Positions 30,301 through 36,300 of a DNA stretch of 64,000 bases are shown piece after piece. Source of the stretch: Periplaneta americana. Lineage: Eukaryota > Arthropoda > Insecta > Blattodea > Blattidae. The position numbers were made by a program, and so were the translations under genes. Where the stretch lies: assembly GCF_040183065.1 (NCBI RefSeq), contig NC_091127.1, positions 109,867,834-109,931,833 of the forward strand. Reading direction: 5' to 3'. Numbering within the stretch: position 1 is the first letter of the stretch; every line of letters starts with the position of its first letter. Under the pieces are notes generated by a model. It saw only the letters and a program-made list of their open reading frames with translations, searched no databases and had not been told where the DNA came from.

Positions 30301-33300
30301 AGTCGTCCTTCATTTTGTGTAAGTTAATGCACAAGATGAATGGGGCACCACAACAAATGGCAGATTCTGATGGCATTCATTTTGCATGTTGTTGTTGTTA
30401 TTGATTGGGAAGGTGACATTGTGATACATTTTTGAACTCGTCTTAATGTGTGTAATCAATGCAACATGATTAAATTTATGTAGTGATATTTGAAAAATTG
30501 ATGACGTCACTTGTATCTTGTACCATAATGCAGTTACATGCACCAAATCTCTACACTCATGTTAGCCCCTCGTTCTAATATAACTCTCAAAAACAAAAAT
30601 TCCAATACCTATCGAAACAAAAAAGTTATAATAGGTGCACAAGATAAATGGGACATCCTGTATAATATCAGTAATGAGAGTCATTGTAAGAGAGCAAGAA
30701 AATATCATTAAATATTAGTTCAGTATTAAGATTTATGTTATACATATTATTATGCTTATGCTATACTCATAAGAGACAATTATTTCTTGTAGGAACAGAA
30801 CCCAGTTCCTCTGAGCATTTAATAACAAGCAATATAAATGAGCCAAAAAGATGTGTTCTTCTGTTACATACCATTTCAAACAATAGCCTGACTAGTTTCT
30901 CTGATTCACCGCGATACTTGGAAGTGAGAGTGGAAGAGGAGACATTGAAGAATGTAGTGCAACATTCGGTAGCCACAGCCTTGGCTAGCATTGTCTTGCC
31001 CGTGCCTGGTGGACCCACCATCAACACACCTTTCCATGGCCGTCGAATACCCTATAAATATAAACAATCAATTAAAACTGATTAAAGTAGACTCTAGAGT
31101 CAGTTACAGTAACAGTTCGAAACTACAAAGCACCTCATATAGCCTATATCATTTTTTTATTGTGTGCATAAAAATACAAATCACACAAGAAATTGAGGTG
31201 TTACATCTAAAATAGAAATTATAAAGTTGACGATCCAAGAAGCACAATTCTAACCCTAAACGTTCATGAGTAAACTAAGCAGAGTTCTTTGTCTTGTAAG
31301 CAGTCAACACTTCTATCAAGCAAGCTGTTTTAGTTTTGGTACAATAGGAATAGTAAAGACGTGGTTGTAACAGTCTGTTTTTATTATTTTGCACAGTTTA
31401 TGATACAATAGTCTTTCGAATATTATATGTAATCATTATTTAAGGCAAAAATCTGACTTATCCCAATGCCAGTTGTCGAAGTCCATGGGAAGATATTATT
31501 GAACAGACTTAGAATACATGATATTAAAAATAATGTTTTATTAATTGAAATAAAATAGTATTAACAATGTCCCTAAGTACATCAAATACATGTGAAACTC
31601 GCGATAAAGATAAAATAAAGACCAAGTTAAATAATTACATGTACACTTTGTGGCGAAAATAATGGGCCACTGACATCTGTAAGTTCCAAATACATACTAC
31701 TGCACATGCTCGTATCATCAAAGCCATAGTTTACCATGTAACACATAATTAAACCATTAAACTTTCTGTATTTTGTTTAACAGTCTGAAATGTGTTATAA
31801 AATCTAAAAATGTTCCAGATACATAAGGGCCTCTACAGAGTGGAATAATAATAAAATTGACAAATACAAAATGGAAGGAAATATGAAAAGTAAAACCTAA
31901 TATTACGCCGATTTGGTACTATCAGTTTCAGTAGCATAACCAACAACGGTCTACAAATGAGTGAACAGTACAGTTGGGACGTTCGTTCTGTGCCGGTGAG
32001 AATCATGTGGTAGCTAGCCAGTGAGCCTACACTCTCGCGCATGCGCAGAATATGGCAAGTGGCCAGTCTCGCAGAAAGCCTTGGCTGTGTAACATCGTCC
32101 TGCCACGTGCGTGATAATTGCTGTTTGTTAGTTTAGTTCATATTCATATTGTTTATTTATTATCGTGGCAAATTGCAGTTGTGTGTGTTTGTGTAGACTA
32201 AAATGCCTCCTATTCAGTCTAAACTTGGAGCAAAAACACTGCATAGCCAAACTCGGGAAGTTGTGAACAATATACATTCTTTCATGAAGAGTGAAGCAGC
32301 TTCTGGAGACTTTTTAATACCGCTGAAAAAGGCGCAAGAACGAGTGCAGCAACTAAAGTGCCCGAAAGAACAATAAGAAAGATAATTAAAGAAGGGAAAC
32401 AGTGTGAGGAAGAAGGGACCTCTTTTGGAACGCCCGGTAAAGTTCATCATGTACCGAAACGCATCACAGATGTTGATGATTTTGATAAAAGAGTTATACG
32501 ACAGACAATTTATAATTTTTATATAAATGACAAAACAGTGCCCACTGTCAGTAAACTGCTACCTAAACTAAAAGATGCCATAAACTTTAATGGCGGTAGT
32601 ACAAGTTTAAAGATCATTTTACGTGATATGGGGTTTAAATGGAAGAAGACAAGAAATAATAAAGCGGTATTACAGGAAAGGCATGATATTCGAGAACAGC
32701 GTGTATCATATTTACGCGCAATAAAGAAATACAGAGAAGAAGGTAGGCCTCTAATAAACGAGGATGAAACGTATATTCATAGCACGCATACAAGACCAAA
32801 AAATTGGAGTGATGACAAAACCTCAGGCTTACTGGCGCCTATTTCGAAAGGACCTAGGCTTATTATTGTTCATGCAGGGGGTCGAGCGGGTTTTGTACCT
32901 GGCGCATTTCTAATGTTTAAATCGAACAGGAAAACTGGAGACTACCATCATGAAATGAATGCCAACAATTACCAGAAGTGGATAACGGAAAAGTTGATTC
33001 CGAATTTGCCCCCTAGATCTGTTTTTATAATAGATAACGCACCTTACCATAACGTGCAGTTGCATAAAGCTCCCTCAAGTAATTCAAAGAAAAGTGATAT
33101 GCAGGACTGGCTTAGAAGAAACAATGTGCAGTTTCAGGAAAATATGCTGAAAGTGGAGCTTTACGGGCTCATTAAAACACATAAGCCACTTCATAAAACT
33201 TACGTGATTGACAATCTCTTAGCTATGAATGGACATTGTGTACTCAGATTGCCGCCGTATTCACCTGAGCTAAATCCATTGGAATTGATTTGGGCAGATA

Positions 33301-36300
33301 TCAAACAGTGGGTAGCCGGTCAAAACACAACTTTTAAATTAGAGCAAGTGATGAAATTGTGCCAACAACGGGTTGATGACATCAGTGTAGAAAAATGGGA
33401 AAAAGTATGTGAACATGTTGAAAAAATCGAAGATGAATATATTGAACAGGAAGGAATTATGGAAAATGTAATTGAAAGCTTCAAAATTACGGGCGGAGAC
33501 AGCAGTAGTGAAAGCGACGACGATGAAGATGATGATCATAACGAAAATCACGACGACAATGGTGGTGATATATCTGGTATCGAAAGTTCGTCTGATGATT
33601 AGATATATTGATTGCGTCTGTTTCTCTTCATTGCTATATAATTGAACCATGGATATCATGTTATGTTTATAATCAGTTTGTATTTATTATGATAACACGT
33701 GTGATGTGATGATACTGGACAACAGTGAGTGGAATGTGCTGTTCATCGCACATCCTGGAACCAACTGCGCATGATGATGTCACTACACGCTGCAGATCCC
33801 AGCCGAGGCGGTAAGTCACGTGTTTCTATAAACTCACTCTGTTGCTCAAGTAACCAAGCACACCGGCACAGAACGACCGTCCCAACTGTACTAGTTCAAG
33901 ATTCGAGTCTCTGACAATCTTAATTTTTTTAAATTATAAATTTTCCATCATATGTCTTGCAAAGCCGGATTTATGTGGCGACATTTCTTACAATATATTC
34001 CCTAACTCTAGTAAATAAAAACCTTCTTTCTCAAGACATACTCCTGTCTGTAAATAAACCAGTCTGTCTCGTCATTACTCTTGAAAATGACAGACAGACA
34101 ACACTGTAAATAAATCATTGCCTGATTGGCATAGGTTATTCTGCATCAAGGGCAGCCAGAATGATTCCCCTTTCTCAATTGCTAAGAGGTGGACTAAACT
34201 TTTCTCCAGCATAGTGAAGTTGCGAATCATCAATTTCTGACCAGTCGCACATCTCTGAAAGGTAAGAAGACGCCATGTTTAGAACTGCCTCAGAACTCAA
34301 TATGGCGTCCAACTTTCCTGGTTCTGCATATATCGTGAGGAGATGTTTTAGAGATCGTGGTTTAAGGTGTCATTGAGTTGTGAAGAAGGAACATTTGAAG
34401 ATGAAACATACTGTGGATGTGTAGCATATGCTACTCTTTAACAGGTCTTCAACTACTGGAGAAATGGAATGCTTTTCTTCTAGCAGGATAATCACTCAGT
34501 ACACACTGCCAACCAGATGATGTTGACTTGGTCGACTGTCCTCCAAATTCACCTGATATGAATCCAATTGAAAATTTGTGGGAAGTGTCAAAGGGATCCT
34601 AAGCTCTATTTGGACAGAACAACCACCAATTCGGTCAGCTGACAAATTGTGGGACAGAATTCTAGATGTGTGGAAGTGGCCACGAATGTAAACCTATTCC
34701 ATAATCTTGTGGACTTCATGTCGAGCAGAATGAGGGCAGCTGTTGACACAAGTGGTTTGCGGACGAAATACTACTCCCTACTATAGGCCTTTTTTTTTGT
34801 TACTTTATTTATATTTGATGTGTTTCCGGTTTTTAGGAAGTGAAACTACTATTATTTTCGGGTTGTAGATTTTTGGGTTCTTGCTGCGTTGTCATTGTTT
34901 TTAGAAGCTGACATTTCGACCATCTTCAGAGCTGCAGTGACTTTTTGACTGCTGGCGTGATGTTTCATAGCTGTTTCTGTGTTCCTGTCGATCGCTGATT
35001 GGTTGTTGGCTTTCCTCCTGTGATTGGTCTGATGGTCGTCCAATAATTGAGAGTATTCCACAATGTTGCAGGAAACAGGAGGCGACATTGACTGCTGGTG
35101 TTCTGCTCTGGCCCTTCATAAGCGCCATATGACCTTGACTGCTGATGTTCTACTGTGGTCTTTCATGTGGGGCATATTTGCCTCTACTGTGTTGCAGGAA
35201 AGTCAGGTTAGCGGTCGACATTATAGCATATTATTGTGTACAGAGGTGGCAAGAACCCAGAAACCTACAACCCATAAACAGTGGCCGCAGAAGCCTAAGT
35301 CAACATTTAAATCATCTCTACGGAGAGAAGAGAGACAATAGTCTCAACAGATGTAGCAACGACGACCGCTAACCTCACTTTCCTGCAACACGGTAGAGGC
35401 GAATATGCCCCACTCATCTACATTTGTGTATTTGTTATTTTAGCTGTTTAAATTATTATTAAAACTAAAATACAAGCATTGCGAATTAGAGAATTTCAAT
35501 GACGAAAAGTGTCCACCCCTAGTCGTGTTGTGCATGATGACTAAAACAATTTATGAATGGCTTGAGTCAAACACCCTGTACAAAAGTAGTGTTATAGCAG
35601 GGTCATTCCATGCAAAAAAGTATGCTTTTGAACCATGATGTCTCAAAAGTTAAAAATATTGTAGTAGGTTATTTTGTATGTTCTAAATATGAATTTCACG
35701 CAATATTATATTTATATCCTTCATTGTTTGGTAACAATCAGCATTTAAAATACTGGTTTAGCAAAGAACACGGTTTCATTCATTGAAGTTTTCTTACTAT
35801 GTGAAAGAAGATGGAAAAGTGATTTCAATGCAATTCGAAAGAGGTGAGCCTTGTTTATAAGTTCCCTCAAAATGAAAAAAATGTATAATTTTTTAAGTAG
35901 TTACCCACCGTAAAATAATTAAAAATAATATAGAACACAAAATGAAATTCATTTTTACAGACGAAAAAACATGTATTTAATTCTTTAGGGTATATTGATT
36001 CCACTGTGAAAATTTCAGAATATTGAATAAAAATATCATGTCAGTTTTTAATAAAAATAAGTCACCGGAATAAAGGAGCTCAGCAGATAGGCTCTCCCAT
36101 TGTACAGAATGTTGCGCGATCAAGGTCAGGAAGATGAACGTTTGAGATTACTCATCGTTATGAAGTCTTGCGAGTGCTGCGACCGTCACACAGAGCAAGC
36201 GATTTTCAACCGTCGGAACAAAAATTAATAATGTTATTAATTTAATAAGTCACAGGTTTTTTGAGGTTATGTCATAAAACTTGAGAGATAGATTAAGAAT

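Follow-up and report, generated by a model that had tools for sequence, protein, structure and literature searches.

Introduction

Transposases of the Tc1/mariner elements have 34-41 residues between the last two members (D2 and E) of their catalytic D-D-E triad (PMC8533490), and a superfamily with a much longer spacer, Sailor/DD82E, has been described, in which this spacing is 78-111 residues and mostly 82 (Shi et al. 2021, PMC8533490). Compared with Tc1-like rows, Sailor transposases (334-676 amino acids in arthropods) contain inserts of 13 and 36 amino acids within the D2-E spacer and of 12-15 amino acids between the two aspartates, and they are marked by the motifs I/VVYLDET, VIIMDNA and HCELNPIEL; the ends of the elements usually start with GT or CC, and the duplicated target is predominantly, not universally, TATA (PMC8533490). 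The same authors suggested that the adoption of TATA, which leaves fewer insertion sites, may have affected how these elements spread (PMC8533490). The main text of that study does not contain the words Blattodea, Periplaneta or cockroach, its species table being in the supplement, and no first record for a host is claimed here; the genome paper on Periplaneta americana names Tc1-Mariner among the leading DNA groups and does not use the term DD82E (PMC12774602). In this report, we analyze a 64,000-nucleotide stretch of the P. americana genome (NC_091127.1, positions 109,867,834 to 109,931,833; hereafter the window), in which a transposon lies inside an old Tc1-type repeat. Our data indicate, with a probability of roughly 85%, that this window element, whose reading frame is broken, belongs to a young cut-and-paste family of the Sailor/DD82E superfamily in the IS630-Tc1-mariner group, Sailor being compared by its published description.

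Results and discussion

Affiliation of the window element

We place the window element with Sailor because its catalytic spacing and its inserts fit. The window copy has 89 residues between the two aspartates (D1-D2) and 82 between D2 and E, and among the 40 copies nearest to it, which were aligned out of 162 first-look candidates, all 35 with both exact motifs are spaced by 82, the other five lacking an exact motif. The initial annotation had read this spacing correctly, and its suggestion that about 82 residues mark a distinct lineage also stands, in view of the described Sailor group (PMC8533490) and of the bacterial IS630 relatives, in which the spacing is 34 at 63 of the 65 loci that have both motifs, and 31 and 32 at the other two. 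When DD82E rows were aligned with 33 IS630 rows, they showed 48 additional residues in the D2-E spacer and 11 (5 + 6) between the aspartates, the single-block form of the former being alignment-dependent. In addition, the window family resembles Sailor in its extra catalytic-domain blocks, its single transposase (467 amino acids here) and its invertebrate host; its 1.93-kb length and 28-bp repeats lie within the arthropod ranges, and its copy number lies within the reported range. The motifs are partly alike, with IYEDET in the window family and VYLDET in Sailor.

The likeness to Tc1/mariner elements such as Sleeping Beauty and Mos1 consists in the duplicated TA target, the DDE nuclease of RNase-H fold and the best matches among solved structures (Foldseek, Mos1 with E 1.3e-4 and Sleeping Beauty with E 2.7e-4), but the spacing of 82 lies outside the 34-41 of that group. 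The bacterial IS630 elements share the DDE_3-type catalytic domain and 21-34% identity with the window protein over 44 rows, and differ in the spacing given above. A bacterial scan with one query (A1) found no relatives, and a second scan, with another query (A3), confirmed 306 loci; the best 80 of these were examined and showed no DD82E spacing, the 65 with both motifs in one frame all being spaced by 31-34. No relatives were found in viruses, phages or plasmids.

A structure model of the window protein, built with the 44 IS630 rows (mean predicted local distance difference test score, pLDDT, 66; predicted template-modeling score 0.54), places two helices in the 48-residue block, which immediately follows D2 and lies ahead of the last core strand, with low confidence there. 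In hAT, Tn5 and RAG1, insertion domains lie between the last core strand and the helix that carries the catalytic Glu. An insertion domain of this type was rejected on position, as the block precedes the last core strand in the weak model. The model is compatible with the block being a minor addition to the RNase-H fold away from the usual position of insertion domains, a reading that we advance, jointly with the one on target length below, only tentatively and at somewhat under even odds.

Ends, target sites and reading frame

The 28-bp inverted repeats with one mismatch and the TA on both sides, as initially annotated, are borne out by the sequence. A repeat finder returned 32 nucleotides at 97% (31967-31998 and 33861-33892), of which 4 bases are the palindromic flank AGTA/TACT. 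The mismatch at position 12 is identical in 40/40 copies, and its interpretation as damage was rejected because it is family-wide. Of the 40 copies, 37 are bounded by TA at either end, as expected of a Tc1/mariner-type TA duplication; the exceptions are L010, with CA at the left, and L014 and L034, with altered ends. One of these, L034, has GTACAT on both sides and an altered right end, the others having simple TA. TATA on both sides and equal flanking 4-mers were each found in 0/37 copies, and a TATA duplication was rejected for the window family on that count. Its left ends begin with CAGT in 37/40 copies, not with the GT or CC of Sailor; Tc1 ends are likewise of the CAGT type.

Beyond the TA itself, the 37 copies show a symmetrical target preference, ANKTAMNT: G or T precedes TA in 35/37 and A or C follows it in 35/37, with A at -3 in 24/37 and T at +3 in 19/37. 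Against background TA sites, which were taken from the regions flanking the copies themselves, K-TA-M is strongly enriched (33/37 versus 753/2643, p 2e-14), as is GTAC (13/37 versus 102/2679, p 5e-10). By family precedent, the N-terminal helix-turn-helix part of the transposase would bind the 28-bp ends, the DDE nuclease with its RNase-H fold would excise the element, and joining at TA with filling-in of a 2-bp stagger would produce the duplication.

The initial annotation had called the window copy nearly intact, with an almost undamaged frame, and for the gene this did not hold. Compared with the majority of copies, it carries 14 substitutions and lacks 4 bp at each of three sites (32132, 32341 and 33709), and its frame is broken because the second of these gaps is a frameshift, which leaves an N-terminal ATG frame of 57 amino acids. 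The longest ATG-started frame of the copy has 324 amino acids; the full-length frame of the family, present in many copies, has 467. Probably, the window copy could now move only with transposase supplied by another copy.

Copy number, age and selection

The genome that was searched comprises 3,231,669,367 bases in 91 contigs and encodes one hormone precursor containing QLTFTPNWGKR, the sequence of Periplaneta CAH-II. With up to 3 mismatches, the 26-bp family end occurs 118 times in forward and 114 times in reverse orientation (232 in all; 0 + 0 in a reversed-sequence control), which would correspond to about 116 elements if every element keeps both ends; the genome search that the initial annotation had proposed thus disposed of its worry that no other copies might exist. 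The 40 aligned copies diverge from the column majority by 0.86% on average and from each other by 1.61%, a ratio near the star expectation that points to a star-like history. Frames that start with ATG and span 460 amino acids or more are kept in 24/40 copies, three of these 24 lacking an exact D2 or E motif, and L010 is the sole carrier among the 40 of an E-to-K change beside the first catalytic Asp.

Private coding changes (186 nonsynonymous, 56 synonymous and 9 stop) match the expectation without constraint (fractions 0.704/0.244/0.052; chi-square p 0.33), suggesting that single copies drift. Variants in at least three copies are skewed to synonymous changes relative to the private ones (15 nonsynonymous and 11 synonymous; Fisher p 0.03), a weak sign that the source copies may have been under selection. 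The low divergence of the 40 copies supports a recent multiplication of the window family, which otherwise looks like an ordinary cut-and-paste transposon family. The recent activity that the initial annotation had deduced from undamaged ends and frame is upheld only as such a multiplication; the argument from this copy fails, as its frame is broken and the repeat mismatch belongs to the whole family.

Other DD82E families and the length of the target

Protein searches, in which 91 of 16,818 and then 150 of 10,863 candidates were scored and by which families may have been missed, brought up further DD82E families in the same genome. One, at approximately 62%, is represented by L073, L075 and L076, with ends reading TA followed by CAGTTCGGCC in L075 and L076, which count as one insertion site because they share their flanks. 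Another, at 54%, is represented by L074, for which element ends were not found. A 502-aa family has its transposase in a 511-aa open frame (L078-L080, on contigs C1, C2 and C9; L078:411-2375), with the motifs VVYLDET, IVMDNA and HCDLNAIE and a spacing of 82; its ends read TA followed by CAGTGCATGAGG in 3/3 copies read, and the matching ends are very short. With up to 2 mismatches allowed, its 5' end was found 319 times (control 0). As L078 differs from L079 by 7 mismatches (1925 aligned bases and 45 gap positions) and from L080 by 7 (1963), this family seems younger than the window family, the three copies having been picked from the best matches. In the second of the two protein searches, more than 25 places had equal score.

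In a 472-aa family (L081, C12:8607500-8610300), which likewise has a spacing of 82, the motif is VYLDES, and its end together with a preceding TATA is found 313 times when up to 3 mismatches are allowed (control 0), a figure that may include both left and right ends. The 100 places listed all have at most 1 mismatch, and the 10 whose letters were shown have TATA in 10/10 cases; this supports, without proving, that the family is TATA-flanked, as the search pattern itself favors TATA. Compared with the window family, the 472-aa family agrees better with the Sailor target as published, and the two are 57% identical over the DDE part. TA followed by CAGT was thus seen in the window family and in two further DD82E families (few sites), and a fourth, the 472-aa family, appears to be TATA-flanked.

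Our data are compatible with a switch of target length between TA and TATA within the DD82E group, with both kinds held by one genome, and we regard this, together with the reading of the 48-residue block, as a possibility slightly less probable than not. If it is true, a comparison of enzymes sharing about 57% identity could reveal the residues that set target length. The TA/TATA contrast within DD82E is the part of the finding worth keeping: with a young DD82E family of about 100 copies at TA beside a TATA-flanked family in the same genome, the proposal on TATA and the spread of Sailor (PMC8533490) becomes testable.

Alternative explanations

Several observations weigh against the placement with Sailor or against the youth of the family. 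The window family duplicates TA and its ends start with CA, while Sailor has mainly TATA and usually GT or CC; once the insert columns are left out, the grouping of the five DD82E rows against the 33 IS630 rows has an ultrafast bootstrap of only 68%; and confidence in the structure model is low across the inserted block (mean pLDDT 49-65 for blocks of residues 231-280), with low Foldseek template-modeling scores (0.28-0.34 by query length, six best matches). In addition, the choice of the copies closest to the window copy lowers the divergence, and the Fisher test on shared variants is marginal and uncorrected. The target, the CAGT ends and the weak grouping would suit a separate DD82E lineage that gained its long spacer independently of Sailor, but such a lineage would have had to arrive at a spacing of exactly 82, at an extra block between the aspartates near the reported size and at a motif, IYEDET, beside the reported VYLDET, and it would have to be reconciled with the kinship to the 472-aa family, whose ends are TATA-flanked and whose motif is VYLDES. 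We consider it improbable and prefer membership in the Sailor/DD82E superfamily.

Two further explanations concern how the copies arose and whether any still move. The family may be dead, its copies being relics of one past burst; this would be compatible with a young Sailor/DD82E family, and we give it an even chance. The closest pair among the 40 copies differs by 0.67%, no copies are identical and the window copy is broken, but the copies with long frames counted above tell against it. By contrast, multiplication mainly through segmental or tandem duplication is very improbable: family ends near 223.04-223.10 Mb of contig C1 do recur about every 8.15 kb, and L014 and L040 have their left flank in common, but theirs is the only shared flank among the 40 copies (E 1e-10, 400-base flanks), and the 37 TA-bounded copies sit at otherwise different sites.

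The interrupted repeat and other features of the window

The initial annotation had reported a paralogous empty site in the window. The joined flanks of the element match 37648-38070 across the join (315/425 columns, 74%; E 4e-70), with 2 more blocks on the coding side, and this confirms the borders of the element. The Tc1-type repeat is common: in a genome search in which 40 of 1857 first-look candidates were scored, giving 72 matched stretches including the query itself, 70 of the 71 non-query stretches have 65-85% identity and one 40-bp stretch has 90%. Judged by these alignments, the empty site did not arise by duplication of the locus but represents a further old member of this common repeat, and it still fixes the element borders. 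The transposase remnant at 34492-34599 matches DDE_3 with E 3.4e-5 (below the curated cut-off) and Sleeping Beauty with E 0.0023; the two other repeat fragments of the three tried had no DDE_3 match. The features are collected in Table 1.

Table 1. Coordinates of the window element, its transposase and the surrounding repeat
Feature	Position	Strand	Basis or remark
DD82E transposon	31971..33888	+	1918 bp in window copy; 30/40 aligned copies have 1926-1932 bp
Left target-site duplication TA	31969..31970	.	sequence
Left terminal inverted repeat, 28 bp	31971..31998	+	first letters CAGTTGGGACG
Right terminal inverted repeat, 28 bp	33861..33888	-	1 mismatch to left repeat, position 12
Right target-site duplication TA	33889..33890	.	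sequence
Broken N-terminal reading frame	32203..32376	+	57 aa, ATG to stop (ends at 32374)
4-bp gap site relative to most copies	32341..32342	+	frameshift; among the other 39 aligned copies only L023 has the gap
Main transposase frame	32358..33602	+	414 aa from GTG; N-terminal part missing; DDE_3 E 3.4e-13
First catalytic Asp, D136 of frame	32763..32765	+	Asn two residues earlier (private); Tyr in most copies
11 residues (blocks of 5 + 6) between both Asp	32811..32843	+	DD82E rows only; alignment
Second catalytic Asp, D226	33033..33035	+	
48-residue block after DNAPYH	33051..33194	+	DD82E rows only; alignment, model; equals 82 minus 34
Catalytic Glu, E309	33282..33284	+	
Old Tc1-type repeat, left part holding the insertion	31706..31970	+	alignment of joined flanks
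Old Tc1-type repeat, right part	33889..34599	+	transposase remnant 34492-34599
Second Tc1-type repeat copy without insertion (empty site)	37648..38458	+	

Some copies of the family lie in particular surroundings. Between 223041608 and 223103387 of contig C1, three successive steps between family ends measure 8.15-8.18 kb and two end pairs are about 5 kb apart; these ends probably belong to a tandem array of a unit with one interrupted copy. In L014 and L040, the damaged 5' end adjoins the common left flank over about 500 bases (the limit of the loci), and the right flanks differ past the element end. The shared flank also belongs to a common repeat: of 1584 candidates, 40 were scored, at 92-100%, and almost all matches stop at about the junction. 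The two copies may represent a composite moved by its intact right end. Elsewhere in the window, ARAGORN predicted two tRNA-Asn (GTT) genes on the minus strand, at 7748-7821 and 8019-8092, whose starts are 271 bases apart.

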